Positions 9,381-32,671 of a stretch of 32,743 nucleotides of DNA are shown here, piece by piece. Source of the stretch: an uncultured Oscillochloris sp. (GTDB lineage Bacteria > Chloroflexota > Chloroflexia > Chloroflexales > Chloroflexaceae); contig CAIRFY010000042.1 in assembly GCA_903877945.1 (NCBI GenBank), positions 1 to 32,743 of the forward strand, written 5' to 3'. Both the position numbers and the translations under genes were made by a program. The notes under the pieces were generated by a model. The model did not search any database and had not been told where the DNA came from. It was given only the letters and a program-made list of their open reading frames with translations. Position 1 is the first letter of the stretch. Every line of letters starts with the position of its first letter.

Positions 9381-12300
9381 CTACTCCGCATCACGCCGCA
9401 GGGCCACCAGTTCGCGCAGTTGGGCGGTGCTCATCTCGGTGAGCCACGCCTCGCCCGCGCCGAGTACCTGAGCGGCCAGGGCGCGTTTGCCCTCGATCAT
9501 CTCGTCGATCTTCTCCTCAAGGGTGCCGCCGCAGACGAACTTATGAACCTGCACGTTCTTGGTCTGCCCGATGCGGAAGGCCCGGTCGGTGGCCTGATCC
9601 TCCACCGCCGGGTTCCACCAGCGGTCGAAGTGGAAGACGTGCGAGGCTCGGGTGAGGTTCAGGCCCACGCCACCCGCCTTGAGCGAGAGGATGAAGATCG
9701 GCGGCCCCTCGGGAGCCTGGAAGCGCCGCACCAGCCCGTCACGGGACTTGGCCGGGGTGCCGCCGTGCAGGAAGAGCGCCTCAACCGAAAGCTGTTTGCT
9801 CAGGTGGGCCTGGAGCATGCCGCCCATCTCGGCGAACTGGGTGAAGATCAGCGCCCGGTCGTCGGCGGCGATCACCTCCTCCAGCATCTCGTCGAGGCGG
9901 GCCAGTTTGCCCGAGCGGTCGTCGAGGGCCGAGCCATCTTTGAGAAAGTGGGCCGGGTGGTTGCAGATTTGCTTGAGCTTGGTGAGCATGGCCAGCACCA
10001 GGCCGCGCCGCCGCGCCTTCTCGCCCTCGTCGTCAGCGCCCTCGATCTGGTTCAGGGCGTCGCGCACAGTGGCCTCGTAGAGCGTGGCCTGCTCCTGGGT
10101 CAGCGGCACAAAAACCTTCATCTCCAGCTTGTCGGGCAGGTCGCTGATGATGCTGCGGTCGGTCTTCAGGCGGCGCAGGATAAAAGGCGCGGTGAGGCGG
10201 CGCAACTGGGTGGCGGCGTCGGCGTCACCGGCACGCTCAATCGGGCGGGCGAACGTGCGCCGGAACTCGGTCTCGCCGCCGAGGTAGCCGGGGTTGAGGA
10301 AGGCCATGATGCTCCACAGTTCGCTCAACCTGTTCTCCACCGGCGTGCCAGTGAGGGCCAGACGACCATCGGAGCGGATGGCGCGTGCCGCCTGGGCCTG
10401 ACGGGTTTCGCTATTCTTGATGTTCTGGGCCTCATCGAGCACAGCCAAACGCCAGGTCATTGCCGTGAGCGCCTCGCGGTCACGGGCGAGCAGCGGGTAA
10501 CTGGTGATCACCACATCGTGTTCAGTGGCCACCTGCTCTAGCTCATCGCCACGGTGACGCTCGGCACCCTGGTGGATGTGGACGCGCAGCGAGGGCGCGA
10601 AGCGGGCCAATTCGCGTTGCCAGTTGCCCACCACCGAAGTCGGACAGACCAGCAGGGTCGGCCCGCCATTGGGGGCGATGTCGCGCTCGTAGAGCAGGAG
10701 GGAGATGGCCTCGGCGGTATTGTGGCAGAGAATAGTGTTGGCGACGAAGTTGTGATGCTCTGTCACCTCTAGGTCATAGACCCAGCCCTCGTGCATCTGC
10801 GTTTCGACCGACCTGATCCGGCAGAAATGCACCTCCTGGTCGAAAGGAGTCTGCTGTCGCTCAGCCCTCACCCCCCAGCCCCCTCTCCATGAACGGGAGA
10901 GGGGGAGCCGAAGGCATCCTACTACGGTATCCCCCCTCTCCCCCGGTGGGAGAGGGGCAGGGGGTGAGGGGGTACGGTTGGCACTGAGAATGTCGTCCAT
11001 CCCTGCAATCACGCGGGCGAGGCTCTGGCGCGAGAATTGCTGCGAGCCATTCAGGTAGACGGTGTTGTGCATGCCAAACATCCGTACCGGCAGGCCCGTA
11101 GCACGAACGCTGTGCGCGACGAGCGTAGATGCGGGAACGCCCTCGACATTCGTGTTTGGCGTGCTGATGCAGATCTGCTCAAGAATCCGTTGCTTGGCTA
11201 CAATCCCAAACCCAACCTCGCGCAGGAATCTGCGCGCCGAGTTGCCACCGATCACGCCGATCTGGTAGGTGCGGTAGATGCCGGAGCCGTTTGTGGCCCG
11301 CTTACGTTTCTGCGAGACGCGCATCCAGATGCCGAGCCGCCGGAGGAGGAGGACAATCTGCTGCATAAGCAGTGACGAGGCCGAGGAGATCTCGATGCTC
11401 GCCATGCTTACGATGACAGATGCCTCCGCATCGAAATAGTTGCGCAGGAAGACCCGCACACCCTCGTCGTTGGCTTGCATGACGAGGTCGGGGATCACTT
11501 TGTCTGCCGATAGCTTGCCCCATTGGTAGCCGTGATTGACGAGAAATCGCTGGTAGGCGCGGCTTGTCCAGCGCAGGTAGGATGCTTTGTGTGCATACGT
11601 GAAGATGATGGCCGACGTGTTCAGCTTGAGGCCGTAGCGATCATCAATAGCATGGAGCGTCGCCCGCAGATCCTCCAGAATCGCCTGGTCGGCCTGTGTG
11701 AGTGTGACTGTGGCATTGTGGTGATTCTCGTGTCCCTCGGCGATCTGCCAGGCGAGTACCTTGATCAGATCGAGATCCGCCGGAGTGCCCTGCCATGTGA
11801 GGTGTGCGGGGACGCAGACGTAGTCGCCGGGAGCGAGATTATTCGTCCAACCCTGGTTGGTGAGGAGCCGGTGACGCCCGGTGATCGTGATGCTGCTGCC
11901 GTCTTCAAGCCTGACCGTGCGCAGCGACTCATTGATCCGCTGACGATAGAGGCGTCGTACCGACGCGGTAACGATCTTGCCGGTCGCTTCGTCAATCGCG
12001 TTCACCTGGAGCAAGGCTGACGGTTCGGCCCAGAAGCCCTCGCCATCGAAGGTCGTTGCGCCAGCGAACTGCTCCCAGATCTGTTCAGCGGGCCTGAGTG
12101 TGCCGTTGACGTAGATCAGACTTGAACCCAAAAGGCACTTGCCGAGTCCCATATCGTCTGCCAGACACGCCCCCATACCGAAGCGGCGCATAAAGGCCAT
12201 CCAGGCCAGGCCGCGTAGCTGGTAGGGGCGCAGCGTGCCGTGGAAGGCGTCAGGCTGGGGCAGGGGCGTAATCGACTCGGTGTTGGACAGCTCACGCAGG

Positions 12301-13889
12301 AGTATCCCCAGGTCGCCCTCGGCGTCCACGCCACCGAAGGCCAAGCCAGCGGGCAGCCCGTCGGAGATGCCGCCGAGCCCCATGCGCAGCAGTTCGGCCA
12401 TGCTCAGTTCGCCGCCCTTGGTGAACAGTTCCATCGCCTTGCGGGCCTGCTCGGGGTCGAGGACCACCCACTCGCCGCGCACCTGGACGAGGGGCTGCTT
12501 CAGCTCGACGAGGCGCTCGAACTCGGCGCGGTCGATTGGCTGCTCACCAACGCTGAGTTCCCAGCGAAAGTCGATCATACTCTGAAAGCTCAGGCGACCA
12601 GGGCCGTCGTTGCGCTTCATCTTACGCGGGGATGCTTTAGCGCGGGCCTTGAGGCGACCAGAGTTGCCCCACCACGCGGGTACCAGCACGCCAAAGCCGC
12701 TCTGTTCCAGCAGCGGAGCGGCGTCCTTGAGGAAGCTAAACGCCTCCTCCACATTCAGGCTGGCGTGGTCGGGAGCCTTGCCACGCAGGCTGCGCTCGAT
12801 AGGCGAGGCCAGACGGGCAGCAAAGCCCAGGCCGCGCAGCAGCCGCTCCTGCGGGTGGTCGAAGCGCCGGTCGAGGTAGGAGAAGTGCTGGCCGCGCTCG
12901 CGCCAGAGTTGGGCGGCGGGTACCAGCAGGCTCGGGTCGTCGGTGGCCTGGAGCAGGTAGCTGAGCGACCAGGGTTCACTGGCCTCAGTCGGCGGCTCCA
13001 GCCGGAAGGTGATGCGGAAGCTCTCGTCGCCGGCCACTTGCTCCTGACCGGCCCACGCCTGCCACGCCTTAAACAGTTCGTCGGCGGGGCGACCGCGCAG
13101 AGAGAGCCCAGGGTCGCGGCCAAGCAGGGCGACCATCCAGGCTGAGCCGGGAGTAGACGGGATGCTGCGCCACACGCTAAGCTGCGCGGAAGCGGTCGGG
13201 TCATCGGCGGCGATCTGACGGGCGAGGGCGTCCACGGCGGCGGCAAGGAAGCTATCGACGATGGTGCGCGGCGCGGGGGCGGCAGCCGGGTCTTCGGTGA
13301 TGGCGCGGCAGAGGGCGGGCATTCCGCTGCGCAGGGCCGCGATCTTACGGGCGGTGGCAGGGACAGGCCGTGGCTCCCAGCAGGCCCGCAGGCTGCCGCT
13401 CTCACGCACCAGCGCGGGGAGGATCTGCTGACCGGCCACCAGTTCCACGGCCAGCAGCGCGGCGGTGCGCCAGACTCGCAGGTCGGCCCCAATGCCGTGG
13501 TCGGGGGAGGGAGGCAGCAGCAGGTCAAGCGCCTGGGCCGCACTGAGCAGCAGGCCACGCACGCGCCAGGGGGCCAGAGTCGGCACGCCCTCGGGGATCT
13601 CGGCTCCGGCCTGGCGCAGTTCGCGCAGCGGCAAGGGCGCACCGCCCACCGAGGGCAGCCAGATCGTCTGCTCGGCGTGGGCCATCGTGCCCGCGCCCGG
13701 ATGTAGCTCGCGCAGGCGCTCATACAGCGCCTCGGGCTGAGCGTGGGCCGGGTGGGATAGGTGCCCTGGTCGTCGTCGCTGTCGTCCGCGCCGCGCCACC
13801 CGCTCGGCCAATTCGCCCCACAAGAAAAGCCGCCCCTCACTGGGTAGCCATGTGCCGTGTATCACGGCGGGGAGGGCCGCATTGGACAT
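9381..13889 (-). CDS. SNF2-family (SWI2/SNF2) helicase precursor, split by an intein
   Basis: 1502 residues before splicing, about 1029 after. The N-terminal 500 residues carry the SNF2-associated region typical of bacterial HelZ-like proteins ('FLKDAAPLLEQSGFGVLVPAWW'). The ATPase: Walker A DDMGLGK|T (interrupted by the intein), 'TLLVCPTSVVGNWQREL', DEAQ box (LAVLDEAQNIKN), 'ALTGTPVENRLSELWSIMAFLNPG', 'FILRRLKTD', 'LKQICNHPAHF', then the C lobe 'RALIFTQFAEMGGML', 'LSLKAGGVGLNLTRASHVFHFDRWWNPAVEDQATDRAFRIGQ'. All motifs for ATP-driven DNA translocation are present once the intein is removed. No strong Shine-Dalgarno is seen before ATG 13889, so the exact start is less sure. It is first in a four-gene series with RecQ-PRTase, DprA-like and SWIM genes. 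Confidence 0.95.
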   Translation of the reverse strand: MSNAALPAVIHGTWLPSEGRLFLWGELAERVARRGRQRRRPGHLSHPAHAQPEALYERLRELHPGAGTMAHAEQTIWLPSVGGAPLPLRELRQAGAEIPEGVPTLAPWRVRGLLLSAAQALDLLLPPSPDHGIGADLRVWRTAALLAVELVAGQQILPALVRESGSLRACWEPRPVPATARKIAALRSGMPALCRAITEDPAAAPAPRTIVDSFLAAAVDALARQIAADDPTASAQLSVWRSIPSTPGSAWMVALLGRDPGLSLRGRPADELFKAWQAWAGQEQVAGDESFRITFRLEPPTEASEPWSLSYLLQATDDPSLLVPAAQLWRERGQHFSYLDRRFDHPQERLLRGLGFAARLASPIERSLRGKAPDHASLNVEEAFSFLKDAAPLLEQSGFGVLVPAWWGNSGRLKARAKASPRKMKRNDGPGRLSFQSMIDFRWELSVGEQPIDRAEFERLVELKQPLVQVRGEWVVLDPEQARKAMELFTKGGELSMAELLRMGLGGISDGLPAGLAFGGVDAEGDLGILLRELSNTESITPLPQPDAFHGTLRPYQLRGLAWMAFMRRFGMGACLADDMGLGKCLLGSSLIYVNGTLRPAEQIWEQFAGATTFDGEGFWAEPSALLQVNAIDEATGKIVTASVRRLYRQRINESLRTVRLEDGSSITITGRHRLLTNQGWTNNLAPGDYVCVPAHLTWQGTPADLDLIKVLAWQIAEGHENHHNATVTLTQADQAILEDLRATLHAIDDRYGLKLNTSAIIFTYAHKASYLRWTSRAYQRFLVNHGYQWGKLSADKVIPDLVMQANDEGVRVFLRNYFDAEASVIVSMASIEISSASSLLMQQIVLLLRRLGIWMRVSQKRKRATNGSGIYRTYQIGVIGGNSARRFLREVGFGIVAKQRILEQICISTPNTNVEGVPASTLVAHSVRATGLPVRMFGMHNTVYLNGSQQFSRQSLARVIAGMDDILSANRTPSPPAPLPPGERGDTVVGCLRLPLSRSWRGGWGVRAERQQTPFDQEVHFCRIRSVETQMHEGWVYDLEVTEHHNFVANTILCHNTAEAISLLLYERDIAPNGGPTLLVCPTSVVGNWQRELARFAPSLRVHIHQGAERHRGDELEQVATEHDVVITSYPLLARDREALTAMTWRLAVLDEAQNIKNSETRQAQAARAIRSDGRLALTGTPVENRLSELWSIMAFLNPGYLGGETEFRRTFARPIERAGDADAATQLRRLTAPFILRRLKTDRSIISDLPDKLEMKVFVPLTQEQATLYEATVRDALNQIEGADDEGEKARRRGLVLAMLTKLKQICNHPAHFLKDGSALDDRSGKLARLDEMLEEVIAADDRALIFTQFAEMGGMLQAHLSKQLSVEALFLHGGTPAKSRDGLVRRFQAPEGPPIFILSLKAGGVGLNLTRASHVFHFDRWWNPAVEDQATDRAFRIGQTKNVQVHKFVCGGTLEEKIDEMIEGKRALAAQVLGAGEAWLTEMSTAQLRELVALRRDAE
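10719..12137 (-). mobile_element. Intein with LAGLIDADG-type homing endonuclease in the SNF2 Walker A motif
   Basis: 473 residues (1419 nt), host residues 585-1057. Cys1 follows GLGK directly; the C-terminus is ...ILCHN, with the extein Thr as the +1 nucleophile, restoring GLGKT. Block A is CLLGSSLIYVNG, block B contains TGRHRLLT with its His, block F is WVYDLEVTEHHNFVAN, block G ILCHN with the penultimate His and final Asn. The middle has two endonuclease motifs, VLAWQIAEGH and FLRNYFDAEASV, each keeping the acidic residue before the last position, although the second has Ala where Gly is usual. All visible splicing residues are intact, so splicing competence is expected. Insertion in the P loop of a helicase is a common intein site, because this stretch is highly conserved. 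Confidence 0.92.
10842..10970. repeat. Family-1 palindromic MITE-like element, copy C, in frame inside the intein
   Basis: The same two-hairpin element as copies A and B, here between the endonuclease and the splicing block F of the intein. The left border, 'aaggagtctgctgtcgctcagccctcacc', is the reverse complement, with one mismatch, of the right flank of copy A. Read on the minus strand it adds a Pro/Arg/Gly/Leu-rich stretch (PSPPAPLPPGERGDTVVG...) of about 45-50 residues. It is about 129 bp (43 codons) long, and the frame is kept. Confidence 0.82.
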
Positions 13890-21465: not shown

Positions 21466-22701
21466 ATGACAACACTGCCGGAAGGCTTCACCATCCTGGC
21501 CATAGAGACATCCTGCGACGAGACGGCGGCGGCCGTGGTGCGCGGCGGGCGCACCATCCTGTCCAACGTCGTCGCCTCACAGATGGACATGCATAGCCGC
21601 TACGGCGGTGTAGTGCCCGAGGTCGCCTCGCGCCAGCACATCATCAGCCTGGTTCCCGTGGTGCGCGAGGCGCTGGCGGCGCTGCCCGGCGGCTGGGCCG
21701 ATATTCACGCGGTGGCCGCCACCCACGGCCCTGGACTCAGCGGCGCGCTGCTCACCGGACTCAACGCCGCCAAGGCTATCGCCTGGCAGCGTGGTCTGCC
21801 CTTCGTGGGCGTGAACCACCTGGAGTCGCATATCTACGCGAGTTGGCTGGATGTTGATGACGGAGTGACAAAGCAACCGGGCGATAAGGTGACAGATCTC
21901 ACCCCCTCACCCCGTCACCCCCTTACCCCGTCACCCCCTCACCTCGTCACCCCCTCACCCCCTCACCTCGTCACCCCCTCACCCCCCGAGTTCCCCCTCG
22001 TCGCCCTGGTGGTCTCCGGCGGTCACACGCTGCTGGCCCTGCTGCGCGGCCACGGCGACTACACGATCCTCGGGCAGACCCGCGACGACGCAGTGGGTGA
22101 GGCGTTCGATAAGGTGGCCCGCATCCTGGGCCTGGGCTACCCCGGTGGCCCGGCCATTCAGCAGGTCGCCCAGAGCGCCCAGCCGCCCGTCGGTGTGCTA
22201 CCCCGCGCCTGGTTGCGCGACAGCTACGACTTCTCGTTCAGCGGCCTGAAGACCGCTGTGCTTCACAAGGTACAGGAGCGCCAGGATCGCCAGGATCGCC
22301 TGCCGAAAGTTGACGTTAAAGCGAAGGCTGGTCGCCCGGTGCTTGGCTCCCAGCCTCCCCCAGTCCCTAGCCCTCCGCCCCCCCTCGACGCTGCCTGGGT
22401 CGCCCAGATGGCCTACGCCTTCCAGGAGTCGGTGGTGGACGTACTCTCGACCAAGACGGTTGATGCTGCGCGTCAGCACGGGGCGACCGCGATCATCCTG
22501 GCTGGCGGGGTGGCCGCCAACACCCGCCTGCGCAGCGAACTCTCCCGCCGCGCTGCGGTGCCCGTGCGCTTCCCGCCGATTGCGCTCTGCACCGATAACG
22601 CGGCTATGGTCGCCGCCGCCGCCTTCTATCGCTTCGCGGCTGGGGCGCAGAGCGGGTGGGATCTGGATGTGACGCCGAATCTGAAGCTGGGTATGTCCTA
22701 G
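21466..22701 (+). CDS. tsaD: tRNA N6-adenosine threonylcarbamoyltransferase TsaD
   Basis: Transfers threonylcarbamoyl to A37 of ANN-decoding tRNAs, with TsaB and TsaE; a near-universal gene. 411 residues, against about 340 in most bacteria. Motifs: LAIETSCDETAAAVV, 'GGVVPEVASRQH', metal-binding NHLESH (HxxxH), LVVSGGHTLL, 'GQTRDDAVGEAFDKVARILGLGYPGGP', 'FSFSGLKTAV', 'LAGGVAANTRLR' and 'LCTDNAAM', so the active site is complete. Two insertions account for the extra length. At about residues 133-174 an octamer-repeat peptide (TPSPPHLV units) sits between NHLESH and the SPPEFPLVALVVSGG strand; at about 268-308 a second proline/charged stretch follows SGLKTAVLHK. Both are in loops by alignment logic, which could explain why the gene survives them. 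No Shine-Dalgarno before the ATG. Confidence 0.94.
   Translation: MTTLPEGFTILAIETSCDETAAAVVRGGRTILSNVVASQMDMHSRYGGVVPEVASRQHIISLVPVVREALAALPGGWADIHAVAATHGPGLSGALLTGLNAAKAIAWQRGLPFVGVNHLESHIYASWLDVDDGVTKQPGDKVTDLTPSPRHPLTPSPPHLVTPSPPHLVTPSPPEFPLVALVVSGGHTLLALLRGHGDYTILGQTRDDAVGEAFDKVARILGLGYPGGPAIQQVAQSAQPPVGVLPRAWLRDSYDFSFSGLKTAVLHKVQERQDRQDRLPKVDVKAKAGRPVLGSQPPPVPSPPPPLDAAWVAQMAYAFQESVVDVLSTKTVDAARQHGATAIILAGGVAANTRLRSELSRRAAVPVRFPPIALCTDNAAMVAAAAFYRFAAGAQSGWDLDVTPNLKLGMS
21862..21987 (+). repeat. Octamer-repeat insertion inside tsaD
   Basis: 'gagtgacaaag...aaggtgacag' is followed by degenerate copies of an 8-bp unit (CCCCGTCA, CCCCCTCA, CCTCGTCA). Three units equal 24 bases, so the peptide has an eight-residue period (TPSPPHLV). 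The switch from GTGAC to GTCAC orientation is the same as in the array at 32403-32671, which suggests a common source. Confidence 0.82.
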
Positions 22702-23700: not shown

Positions 23701-23770
23701 AATCCACAATCCACAATCCACAATCCACAATCCACAATCCACAATCCACAATCCACAATCCACAATCCAC
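23701..23770. repeat. Perfect tandem array: ten copies of AATCCAC
   Basis: Seventy bases are ten exact copies of the 7-bp unit AATCCAC, with an earlier part copy. The array begins two bases beyond the stop of the hybrid kinase (23773) and ends before the family-2 fragment. On the minus strand the array has no stop in one frame and so inflates the hisN ORF. Such exact short arrays change length by slippage. Confidence 0.95.
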
Positions 23771-23772
23771 AC

Positions 23773-28490: not shown

Positions 28491-28543
28491 CAGGGTATTC
28501 CTCAGCTTAGCTGCGCACCCCATGATACCATGCGCAGACGTGC

Positions 28544-28649: not shown

Positions 28650-28664
28650 AGGAGGTTTGTCGTG
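28650..28664 (+). promoter_or_regulatory. Shine-Dalgarno plus GTG start of the FHA-clostripain gene
   Basis: AGGAGG at 28650-28655 is six bases before GTG 28662. The protein then begins PLQIVALSGPLAGRIFPL, the usual opening of an FHA domain. This removes 44 residues from the ORF-track protein. Confidence 0.82.
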
Positions 28665-31112
28665 CCGTTGCAGATCGTGGCGCTCAGCGGCCCTCTGGCG
28701 GGCCGCATCTTTCCACTTGGCAACGTGCCCCTGAGCCTGGGGCGAACCCCTGAGAATGCGGTTGTTCTTGCCAGCGCCCTGGCTTCGCGCCACCACGCCG
28801 AGCTGCGTTACGAGGGCAATGGCTATGTCCTCTATGATCTGGGCAGTTCTAACGGCACGTTGGTGAATGGCCAGCGCGTCCAGACCGTACACCTGAACCC
28901 CGGCGATGTGATCACCATTGGCGATGAGTCGTTTCGCTTCGACGCACCGGCGATGGACAAGACGTTGCTGGTCGGCGGTACTCATCCACCACCAGCCTTT
29001 GCTGCCCAAACCCCGCTGCCGCCTGTTGCGCTGCCCCCCGCCTATGCGCCCACCCCGTCCCGCCCCAGGTCGCGCACGCCGATTGTGATTGTCGTCGGCC
29101 TGCTGCTGGCCTGTGCGGTGGTCGCGGGCCTGGCTGGCGGCGCGCTGCTGATCACCCGTATCTCTGGCGGTGGTTCTGCGACCACGCAGCCCGTGGCGGG
29201 AACCAGCGCCGCCGGGGGCCAGGCAGCGCCCGCCCCGGTGCCCACCCGTGTCCCCGCTTCTGGACAAGACGCCGCCTGGACGGTGATGGTCTACCTGGAC
29301 GGCGACAATAATCTGGAGGCCGACGCCCTGGCCGACTTCGCCGAGATGGCCAAAGTCGGATCGAACGACTCGATCAAGATCGTCGTCCAGTTCGACCGGG
29401 TGCAGTCGCGGGAGGCGTGGGACGACACCTCGGCGGGGGACTGGGACAGTACCAAGCGTTTCTTGGTGGGGAAAGATATGCGGCCCACGCCGGGGAATGC
29501 GCTTGAGGATCTTGGCGAGCAGAACATGGGCGATCCGACCGTCCTGGCCGACTTTGTCGCGTGGGGGGTGACGACCTACCCTGCCCAGCACTACGCCCTG
29601 ATCATCTGGGATCACGGCGGCTCGTGGCTGGGGCTTGCCAGTGATGACACCGACCAGGATCAGCTAAACCTGCCGGAACTGAGCGCGGCTCTGGAAACGG
29701 CCCGCCAGAAGACAGGATTCGGCACCCTCGACCTGATTGGCTTCGACGCCTGCCTGATGGCGCAACTCGATGTTCTGATGGCGATTGAACCCTACGCGCA
29801 CGTGGCGGTGGCCTCGGCGGAACTGGAGCCACGTCAGGGCTGGGCCTGGGATACGTGGCTAGAATCCCTGGCCGCAGACCCGTCCCAGGACGCGCTGACC
29901 ATCGCGCCGGTGATTGTGCAGACCTACATCGACTCGTACCAGTCTGTTCATGAGAACGACGTGACCCTCTCGGCGTTCGACCTGCGCAAGCTACCCGCGC
30001 TGACCCAGCAGGTTGACCGGCTGGCACAGGCGATGCTCGCTGATATGCGTGGCTCGTACACCGCAATCGGCCAGGCCCGCTCGTATGTGGATGTCTACGC
30101 GCCCGCGTACTCCGAGCAGTTTAACTCCGTGGATCTGGGGCAGTTCGCTGGGTTGCTGCCTGAGCAGGGGGCGAAGGGCGAGGTGGCGGCGGCGGCGGCC
30201 GATCTGGGCAACGCCCTTACGCAGGCCCGCATTGCCAACGGCACCGGGAGCTACCACGCGAAGGTCAGCGGCCTGTCGATCTACTTCCCGCAACTGGCCG
30301 AGCTGTATGTGGACGCCTACGAGCGCGGGTCGCCCCTGCCACGCGCCACAAAATGGGCCGACTTCCTGAAGAACTACCAGAGCGCGGGCGACACGGCGGT
30401 GACGACGCCGACGATCAGCGACCTGCAGATTGACCGCACCAGTGTGAGTCCACATACGCCGGTGACGCTGAGCGGCTCGCTCAGCGGCAGCGATAGTGCC
30501 TACGTCTTCTCCTTCATCGGTATCCCCAACGCCAGCCGCGACACGGTGGATCTGATCTCGGTAGATTTCATCTACCCGCCGGGGGCGGGGCCGGGCAGCG
30601 CTGCGCCGAAGTGGCCCAATGGTAAATTTGACCTGAGCCTGAACTGGGACGCAACCAACTGGTACTTGAGCAACGGCAGGGATCAGATCGAGGCGCTGCT
30701 GGGGCCGGTGAAGTACGGCAGCGGATTCTACGGCGTGGAGGGCGTCTATACCTCGCGGGCCACTGGCGAGCAGATCGACGCTGGCTTGATCTTCAGCGTG
30801 AGCGGCACTCAGGGCGAACTGACCCGGATCTGGGGCTTCCCGAAGTCAGCGGGCAAGCAGGAGGCCCAGCCCTACGAACTGAACCCGGCTGCGGGCGATA
30901 CGTTCACCGCCTACACACGCAGCTACACCGATACTGGCGGCAGCCTCAAGCCCGCCCGCGTGAAGGGGCAGACGATCACGTTTGGCGACACGCCCCTGAG
31001 CGCGAGCGACGGGCCAACCCTGAGCGGCGATTATGTGATGGGCTTTCTGGTGCGCGACATCGCTGGGAACTATAGCTATGATTATGTTGATGTGACTGTG
31101 ACGAATCCGTAA
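28662..31112 (+). CDS. FHA domain - transmembrane - clostripain (peptidase C11) protein
   Basis: 816 residues from GTG 28662. N-terminal FHA domain (about 1-100) with LSLGRTPENAVVL, the SRHHAEL phosphothreonine-binding piece and 'YDLGSSNGTLVNG'. A Pro-rich linker precedes one membrane segment (about 140-162, TPIVIVVGLLLACAVVAGLAGGALLI). A Thr/Pro/Ala-rich spacer then leads to a C11 cysteine protease domain (about 205-540): 'WTVMVYLDGDNNLE', catalytic His318 in IIWDHGGSW, catalytic Cys364 in IGFDACLMAQ. The last ~200 residues look like a beta-rich extracytoplasmic domain (TISDLQIDRTSVSPHTPVTLSGSL). The likely arrangement is a cytoplasmic phosphothreonine reader controlling an external protease, which points to signalling by Ser/Thr kinases. 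This is inference. Domain order is seen directly; the cleavage target is unknown. Confidence 0.9.
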   Translation: MPLQIVALSGPLAGRIFPLGNVPLSLGRTPENAVVLASALASRHHAELRYEGNGYVLYDLGSSNGTLVNGQRVQTVHLNPGDVITIGDESFRFDAPAMDKTLLVGGTHPPPAFAAQTPLPPVALPPAYAPTPSRPRSRTPIVIVVGLLLACAVVAGLAGGALLITRISGGGSATTQPVAGTSAAGGQAAPAPVPTRVPASGQDAAWTVMVYLDGDNNLEADALADFAEMAKVGSNDSIKIVVQFDRVQSREAWDDTSAGDWDSTKRFLVGKDMRPTPGNALEDLGEQNMGDPTVLADFVAWGVTTYPAQHYALIIWDHGGSWLGLASDDTDQDQLNLPELSAALETARQKTGFGTLDLIGFDACLMAQLDVLMAIEPYAHVAVASAELEPRQGWAWDTWLESLAADPSQDALTIAPVIVQTYIDSYQSVHENDVTLSAFDLRKLPALTQQVDRLAQAMLADMRGSYTAIGQARSYVDVYAPAYSEQFNSVDLGQFAGLLPEQGAKGEVAAAAADLGNALTQARIANGTGSYHAKVSGLSIYFPQLAELYVDAYERGSPLPRATKWADFLKNYQSAGDTAVTTPTISDLQIDRTSVSPHTPVTLSGSLSGSDSAYVFSFIGIPNASRDTVDLISVDFIYPPGAGPGSAAPKWPNGKFDLSLNWDATNWYLSNGRDQIEALLGPVKYGSGFYGVEGVYTSRATGEQIDAGLIFSVSGTQGELTRIWGFPKSAGKQEAQPYELNPAAGDTFTAYTRSYTDTGGSLKPARVKGQTITFGDTPLSASDGPTLSGDYVMGFLVRDIAGNYSYDYVDVTVTNP

Positions 31113-31161: not shown

Positions 31162-32433
31162 ATGTCGCACCCGATGAATGCGTTTATGGCCCGGCTCCAG
31201 CACGTAGGTGTGGGCGTGATCAGCGGATGCTATACACCGGCGACGATTGCCCAACTCGCACAAAGCCTCGGTCGGTTGGCCTTTTTCGGTGATGAGAGTG
31301 TCTTGTTGGTAGCCGGCGGCGATCAGCAGCGGGCCTGGGCCGACCTAGCGCTGCGCGGGGTGGATGTCCAGGTACGGCGGATAGATCTGTTGGCCGCGCC
31401 GAACGTGGGAACGGGCTTTATCCTGATCGGCGTCGGCCCGGCCCACGGCTTCGCCCTGCTGGCCTACCCGATTGAGCCGGTGGAACGCGATGAGAGCGTG
31501 CGACTGCACGATGTATGCTGGTGTGTTAGCCCGGCGGCTCTGCGCGAACTCGCCGACATGCTGCACGAGGCAATCAGTGCCGATGTGATCCGGCGAATTG
31601 CCGCGCTCCACGCCCCCGCATCCGAGCTACTGCTGCGCCTGAGCAGCAACCTGCTCGACTTCGCCGCCCGCCAGCACAGCACCCTCGGTGTGGCCAACCG
31701 CGCGCTTAGTGAGCGCATGCGCAACCAGGAGGATCAGACGCGCATGATCGTCCACGATATGCGTGCGCCTCTGCATACGCTGCTGATCAGCATCAAGGCT
31801 CTCCAGCGCCAACGCTTTGACCCTGACGGCCAGAACGAGTTGCTTGGCGTGGCCAGGGATAGCGCCAGTTACCTGCTGACCCTCACCGAGACGGTGCTGG
31901 ACTCAGCGCGCCTGGAGACTAACGACTGGTCGCTGAAGCGCCAGCCGGTGCGCCTGATCAACCTGGTGCAATCGGTATGCGACCCGCTGGAGGTTGCGGC
32001 GCGTCCAGATCAGGCTCGGCTGCGGCATATGGTGGCCGACGATCTGCCGATGATCTGGATCGACCGCACCCTGATGGAGCGCGTATTGATGAACCTGATC
32101 ACCAACGCGATTAAGTACACCCCGGCCAGCGGCGAAATCAGCGTGACGGCCCGGCTGATCCACGATGGTCATACGGTTGAGATGAGCGTGAGCGACTCGG
32201 GCCAGGGCATCTCGAAAGAGGCGCAGGCCCACATCTTTGAGCGATTCTACCAAGCCAACGAGAACGACCGTCGTCGTGGTACGGGCCTGGGCCTCTACTT
32301 CTGTCGGCTCGCTGTGGAAGCTCACGGCGGTAGTATCGCGGTGCAAAGCGCGGTGAGCCAGGGTAGTTCCTTTATTATTTCGCTCCCGATTACCACTGGA
32401 GGGGGTGACAGGGTGACATTGGTGACAGGGTGA
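31162..32433 (+). CDS. Soluble sensor histidine kinase with a possible DICT-like input domain
   Basis: 423 residues from ATG 31162 (GAGGTGGG just upstream; the track start is a GTG at 31150). Residues 1-145 form an input domain that has the look of DICT sensory domains ('GCYTPATIAQLAQSLGRLAFFGDESVLLVA...'), with low confidence. A short coiled coil precedes the H box, His198 in MIVHDMRAPLHTLL. HATPase: N box NLITNAIKYTP, G1 DSGQGI, G2 GTGLGLYFCRL. No membrane segment and no receiver domain, so it needs a separate response regulator, which may lie past the window edge. The last residues, GGGDRVTLVTG, and the TGA stop are encoded by repeat DNA at 32403-32433. The family end normally falls near LPI, just before it. 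Confidence 0.87.
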   Translation: MSHPMNAFMARLQHVGVGVISGCYTPATIAQLAQSLGRLAFFGDESVLLVAGGDQQRAWADLALRGVDVQVRRIDLLAAPNVGTGFILIGVGPAHGFALLAYPIEPVERDESVRLHDVCWCVSPAALRELADMLHEAISADVIRRIAALHAPASELLLRLSSNLLDFAARQHSTLGVANRALSERMRNQEDQTRMIVHDMRAPLHTLLISIKALQRQRFDPDGQNELLGVARDSASYLLTLTETVLDSARLETNDWSLKRQPVRLINLVQSVCDPLEVAARPDQARLRHMVADDLPMIWIDRTLMERVLMNLITNAIKYTPASGEISVTARLIHDGHTVEMSVSDSGQGISKEAQAHIFERFYQANENDRRRGTGLGLYFCRLAVEAHGGSIAVQSAVSQGSSFIISLPITTGGGDRVTLVTG

Positions 32434-32671
32434 CTTGGTGACTTGGTGACTCCCCGTCACCCCGTCACCCCGTCACCGCGTCACCCCGTCACCGCGTCAC
32501 CCCGTCACCCCGTCACCGTGTCACCCCGTCACCGCGTCACCGCGTCACCGCGTCACCCCGTCACCCCGTCACCCCGTCACCGCATCACCGCGTCACCCCG
32601 TCACCCCGTCACCCCGTCACCGCATCACCGCGTCACCGCGTCACCCCGTCACCCCGTCACCCCGTCACCGT
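32403..32671. repeat. Octamer minisatellite, orientation-switched
   Basis: From 32403 there are GTGAC-type units (ggtgacag, ggtgactt), then from about 32452 some 27 units of CCCCGTCA with variants CCGCGTCA, CCGTGTCA and CCGCATCA. The two halves are inverted, so the array can fold back on itself. ORF 32443-32673 in the track is only the translated array (PRHPVTPS period) and is not a gene. Confidence 0.93.

Follow-up and report, generated by a model that had tools for sequence, protein, structure and literature searches.

In several described systems parts of the protein considered here are already known. In the LapD-LapG system (PMC3032545, PMC3032553) a cytoplasmic c-di-GMP signal governs a cysteine protease across the membrane. 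In DgcB, OdhI and GarA the FHA domain binds a phosphorylated stretch of the same protein, and these self-ligands have hydrophobic residues at positions -3, +2 and +3, an acidic residue at -2 and Ser at +1 (PMC6733907). Clostripain and PmC11, members of MEROPS family C11 (9cip, 3uws, 6mzo), have a caspase-like fold and a His/Cys dyad with an Asp two residues before the Cys, these being Asp177 and Cys179 in PmC11 (PMC4850288). Finally, YscD-type inner-membrane components of type III secretion systems combine an FHA-fold cytoplasmic domain with a single helix.

The protein described below carries an FHA domain, a membrane helix and a C11 peptidase on one chain. The parts are known but the combination was not found described in the literature, most subscription journals lying outside the search, and an earlier note on this DNA likewise knew of no described function for such an architecture. 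The one paper that named both an FHA domain and clostripain in our literature search was a toxin survey which did not describe the architecture, and an annotation paper on Chloroflexus listed one C11 protein, without an FHA domain.

The FHA-C11 gene

The gene is located on a stretch of 32,743 nucleotides from an uncultured Oscillochloris sp., which is called the window here. Its 816-residue product consists, from the N- to the C-terminus, of an FHA domain, one membrane helix, a C11 peptidase and a C-terminal beta domain (Table 1). The earlier note, made from the sequence alone, had proposed an FHA-TM-clostripain fusion at 28662-31112. Pfam, hydropathy, predicted fold and orthologues all bore this out, but the description had left out the C-terminal beta domain (residues 583-816) and a conserved Thr motif between the FHA domain and the helix.

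Table 1. Features of the FHA-C11 locus and of related loci (positions refer to the window unless a locus is named)
Feature	Position	Strand	Remarks
Ribosome-binding site AGGAGG	28650..28655	+	6-nt spacer to GTG at 28662; from sequence
FHA-TM-C11 gene	28662..31112	+	816 aa; GTG start, TAA stop 31110-31112; Pfam and orthologues
FHA domain	28734..28922	+	Residues 25-87 by Pfam, E 1.2e-19; fold ~3-95; R28, S42, R43, H45, N64, G65 intact
Cytoplasmic Pro-rich linker (predicted)	28947..29078	+	Residues 96-139; predicted disordered, pLDDT <50; variable among orthologues
Thr motif M98-D99-K100-T101-L102-L103-V104	28953..28973	+	Candidate kinase site and FHA self-ligand; T101 in 24/25 orthologues
Single transmembrane helix (predicted)	29082..29150	+	~Residues 141-163; hydropathy; basic residues on N-terminal side
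Outside stalk (predicted)	29151..29270	+	Residues 164-203; predicted disordered
Peptidase_C11 (clostripain family) domain	29289..30374	+	Residues 210-571; Pfam E 1.4e-49; Foldseek 9cip, 6mzo, 6n9j
Catalytic His318	29613..29615	+	27/27 orthologues
D362-A363-C364 (S1-pocket Asp, catalytic Cys364)	29745..29753	+	27/27 orthologues; roles by analogy with PmC11 Asp177/Cys179
C-terminal all-beta domain	30408..31109	+	Residues 583-816; no match to a Pfam family; PDB search gave no confident fold
Soluble histidine kinase (HisKA + HATPase_c)	31162..32433	+	49 nt after protease stop
FHA-linker-helix proteins with other ectodomains	L082 6574-8553; L083 4240-6858; L084 5677-9728; L144 289-1917		

An upstream ATG at 28530 was rejected as the start because the GTG at 28662 is preceded by a ribosome-binding site and the matches to orthologues begin there. 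A spurious reading frame is ruled out by the profiles, the folds, the occurrence in 29 genomes and the dN/dS values, and an assembly chimera by the presence of the same fusion in the single-contig genomes G032, G035 and G042. Orthologues down to about 47-50% identity retain all features of the protein. In the orthologue alignment dN/dS was about 0.08-0.20 in the FHA, C11 and C-terminal domains, indicating purifying selection which was as strong on the FHA domain as on the protease domain; in the linkers it was 0.3-0.5. Because divergent orthologues keep all features and the domains are under purifying selection, this is a genuine gene and a genuine fusion.

Pfam matches in the protein were restricted to FHA, Peptidase_C11 and PF16697, the last overlapping the FHA domain only. 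The likeness to YscD ends at the membrane: beyond the helix follows a C11 protease and not the YscD periplasmic part, and membership in a type III secretion system was therefore rejected.

Elsewhere in the window, an SNF2-type helicase gene (9381-13889, minus strand) has an intein insert at about 10719-12002 (residues 630-1057, matching Intein_splicing and LAGLIDADG_3). There are also three tandem repeats: 11 copies of the 8-bp unit CTCACCCC at 21898-21986, 27 copies of the 8-bp unit CCCCGTCA at 32452-32669 and 10 perfect copies of the 7-bp unit AATCCAC at 23701-23771. The first of these falls within the TsaD gene without breaking its frame, giving the TsaD protein an insert of the TPSPPHLV type.

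Distribution and relatives without FHA

A search of 158 Chloroflexia genomes yielded FHA-C11 proteins in 29, which are all phototrophs. Twenty-three belong to the Chloroflexaceae, the family of the window, and six to a second family, probably Roseiflexaceae-like, which was sister to the Chloroflexaceae in a tree based on the C11 and C-terminal domains. All 27 FHA proteins in this tree lay on one side of a single branch with support of 100/100, although long branches meet there. The reaction-centre family PF00124 was present in all 29 genomes but also in 35 without the gene; as both follow the tree, we make no claim of a functional link to phototrophy. Beyond Chloroflexota the search consisted of one peptide-pattern scan of genome contigs, which returned Chloroflexota records only.

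Forty other C11 loci of Chloroflexota were read, and no FHA domain occurred in frame in any of them; 18 encoded the same C-terminal domain. These relatives (e.g. L042, L087, L095, L097) resemble the window protein in placing the C11 and beta domains behind a lipobox or a membrane helix. They differ in their N-termini, which are lipobox signals (L042, L094, L119) or membrane helices preceded by a short N-terminus, by a basic QRRRxG one or, in L095, by a zinc ribbon. The comparison with these 40 loci shows the FHA domain as a lineage-specific, putatively cytoplasmic addition. In the Anaerolineae-type proteins L097, L099, L100, L101, L102, L104 and L107, which have the same C-terminal domain, the QRRRxG sequence is a conserved basic cytoplasmic tail before the helix.

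The FHA domain and the threonine motif

The FHA domain scored 70.9 bits with PF00498 (cut-off 20.7). Its nearest sequences and folds were those of GarA/OdhI, and its model matched the FHA domain of GarA with a Foldseek E-value of 9e-7 and a TMt of 0.83. Twenty-five of the 27 aligned orthologues include the FHA region, and in all 25 the residues of the canonical GR/SxxH/NG pocket were invariant. The domain is predicted to read phosphothreonine.

This conservation bears on a rival account of the protein, namely a constitutive surface protease for nutrient or sheath turnover in which nothing about the FHA domain depends on phosphorylation. Chloroflexota has further C11 proteins that share the C-terminal domain and do manage without FHA. 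An invariant pocket in a domain with dN/dS of 0.08-0.20 is nevertheless difficult to reconcile with such an account, and we consider it hardly probable at all.

T101 is the sole conserved residue of an otherwise variable stretch after the FHA domain; among the 25 orthologues only L025 lacks the Thr. In the 24 others an acidic residue occupied position -2 in 19, and position +1 was Leu or Val. MDKTLLV of the window protein has the hydrophobic -3, acidic -2 and hydrophobic +2 and +3 residues of the OdhI, GarA and DgcB ligands. It differs from them in having Leu instead of Ser at +1 and in lying just C-terminal to the FHA domain, whereas theirs precedes it. Moreover, the output of those proteins is an enzyme inhibitor or a diguanylate cyclase; here it would be a surface protease. 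The motif is the best lead toward a mechanism, and its composition and conservation make T101 a candidate phosphorylation site.

Soluble FHA proteins encoded in the same genome also possess a Thr near the end of the FHA domain (DPEATV, DPDPTVV), which means that the motif is perhaps not peculiar to FHA-C11 proteins. Four Roseiflexaceae-like proteins (L082, L083, L084 and L144) consist of an FHA domain, a linker and a single helix joined to other ectodomains, and carry QDATLL, QDATVL or GTATVL at the equivalent place. It is possible that FHA-linker-helix with a Thr after the FHA domain is a general module with interchangeable ectodomains.

Membrane topology and linkers

The hydrophobic peak at residues 141-159 (mean Kyte-Doolittle value 2.83) has RPRSR on its N-terminal side and just one Arg on its C-terminal side. 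From this charge distribution, and because related C11 proteins have lipobox or membrane-anchor N-termini, we infer that the FHA domain is inside the cell and the C11 and C-terminal domains outside. AlphaFold models of 11 orthologues gave FHA and C11 folds and a C-terminal domain made up of beta structure only, and the connecting segments were of very low confidence, with pLDDT below 50 for residues 96-202.

Could occupancy of the FHA domain inside alter C11 activity outside directly through the helix, as the wording of the earlier note suggests? That both ends have been kept together in one clade is compatible with such an allosteric switch. However, the single helix is flanked by segments of 44 and 40 residues that are predicted to be disordered and are of very different lengths among orthologues. 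This argues against a direct switch, which we regard as very improbable. For the same reason we think control by clustering or recruitment likelier.

The protease and the C-terminal domain

The C11 domain reached 170 bits with PF03415 (cut-off 25.8). Its model matched clostripain (9cip) with a Foldseek E-value of 4e-13, and TMt values of 0.62-0.74 with 9cip, 6mzo and 6n9j indicated a caspase-like fold. His318 and Cys364, which the earlier note had named as the catalytic residues, are both present and correctly numbered. Their loss in orthologues, which by that note would have refuted its reading, was not seen in any of the 27. D362 is an acidic S1 residue corresponding to PmC11 Asp177 and clostripain Asp229, and by this analogy suggests cleavage of substrates after Arg or Lys. 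PmC11 cleaves itself at Lys147, 14 residues after its His133. The window protein has no Lys or Arg within 29 residues after H318 and hence lacks a PmC11-type activation site, so that its C11 domain may become active without such a cut; in only a few orthologues did a Lys or Arg stand at about +14. In contrast to clostripain and PmC11 the window protein is predicted to be membrane-anchored, with an FHA domain inside and an extra C-terminal beta domain.

The C-terminal domain was modelled well (pLDDT 84.5), yet its fold had no confident match in the PDB. It is strongly conserved in the orthologues and recurs in other Chloroflexota C11 proteins. Chloroflexus orthologues (L070 8841-12059, last 150 residues) end in an additional PsbP-like domain which is absent from the window protein.

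Neighbouring kinases

The earlier note had suggested a search for Ser/Thr kinases in the neighbourhood, and the outcome differed between the two lineages. In five of the six Roseiflexaceae-like genomes FHA-C11 is followed directly, on the same strand, by a gene for a transmembrane Ser/Thr kinase with SH3-like and carboxypeptidase-regulatory-like outside domains. No such kinase occurred near FHA-C11 in the Chloroflexaceae neighbourhoods checked, nor is there any Ser/Thr kinase on the contig of the window, where a histidine kinase adjoins instead; the genome of the window has 20 Pkinase-family matches.

Linkage of FHA-C11 to this histidine kinase or its orthologue was seen in 16 of the 23 Chloroflexaceae genomes. 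The two genes adjoin in the window and eight Chloroflexus genomes, and in seven an FtsX/MacB-like permease gene lies between them, one of these loci being split over contigs. The permease, found between the two in several Oscillochloris-like genomes, is weakened as an obligate partner because the best copy in the genome of the window is only 31% identical and the Chloroflexus loci have none at this spot. The histidine kinase can persist without FHA-C11, as genome G034, which lacks the gene, has an orthologue (61%; contig C43, 12727-13980).

The membrane kinase that adjoins FHA-C11 in the Roseiflexaceae-like genomes invites the view that the FHA domain is an address tag only. Its ligand would be a phosphothreonine of some other protein, for instance a membrane kinase or a division or wall protein, and binding would position the protease, T101 being unphosphorylated. 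The pocket invariant in 25 of 25 orthologues agrees with this, and disordered linkers suit a tether, but the retention of T101 in a fast-changing linker would be left unexplained. We judge this view possible, if rather doubtful.

Kinase genes linked in both lineages would also fit information flowing the other way. The protease or the strongly conserved C-terminal domain would meet a ligand outside, possibly with self-cleavage at R196 in the stalk, and the FHA end, freed or rearranged, would relay this to the histidine or Ser/Thr kinase encoded alongside. Arg occupies the R196 position in 20 of 27 orthologues and a basic residue is found nearby in the Roseiflexaceae-like ones. L029, however, has no basic residue at the equivalent place, stalks rich in Pro, Thr and Arg are perhaps conserved for other reasons, and neither a membrane part nor an FHA part is predicted in the linked histidine kinase. 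We think such outside-in reporting unlikely, and R196 as a site of self-release is speculative.

A possible mechanism

We tentatively favour a surface C11 protease anchored by one helix, in which binding of phosphorylated T101 by the FHA domain inside governs clustering or recruitment, though we would put this at somewhat less than an even chance. A Ser/Thr kinase would phosphorylate T101. The phosphothreonine might then be bound in cis by the protein's own FHA domain, closing it to partners, or in trans by that of a neighbour, linking protease molecules into clusters. Binding in cis would either leave the FHA domain available to partners or make it inaccessible to them. As a result protease molecules might gather in clusters or be drawn to a phosphorylated partner, for instance a membrane kinase, and their position would set where on the surface substrates are cut after Arg or Lys. 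In this way phosphorylation inside may govern cleavage outside, as the earlier note had supposed. Favourable points are the intact domains and residues, the conserved T101, the similar Thr motif in FHA-linker-helix proteins with other ectodomains, the linked kinase of the sister lineage, the 20 Pkinase-family matches in the genome of the window, the selection on the FHA domain, the single clade and the lipobox or anchored relatives. Less favourable are the missing kinase near orthologues of the window's family, L025 without the Thr, the position of the motif after the FHA domain and the Thr in soluble FHA proteins.

As in LapD-LapG, a cytoplasmic signal would govern a cysteine protease across the membrane. 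The window protein, however, has no c-di-GMP receptor, and its protease is not a separate protein but part of the same chain as the reader; the signal would be Thr phosphorylation. FHA-C11 would thus unite the LapD-LapG and FHA self-ligand ideas in one chain, a resemblance of working and not of membership. In a bolder form, which we consider a minority possibility, the protein would be a one-protein inside-out switch and counterpart of LapD-LapG: phosphorylated T101 would alter FHA binding in cis or trans and turn on or place C11 surface cleavage, and the FHA-linker-helix family with other ectodomains would share the same handle.

The question reduces to one residue (T101) and one pocket (R28/S42). 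If the proposal is true, it would connect Ser/Thr phosphorylation directly with cell-surface proteolysis in bacteria, by an enzyme of caspase fold, and would do so in multicellular filamentous phototrophs, of whose surface biology little is known. It would also draw attention to FHA-linker-helix proteins as a wider set whose outside domains are interchangeable.
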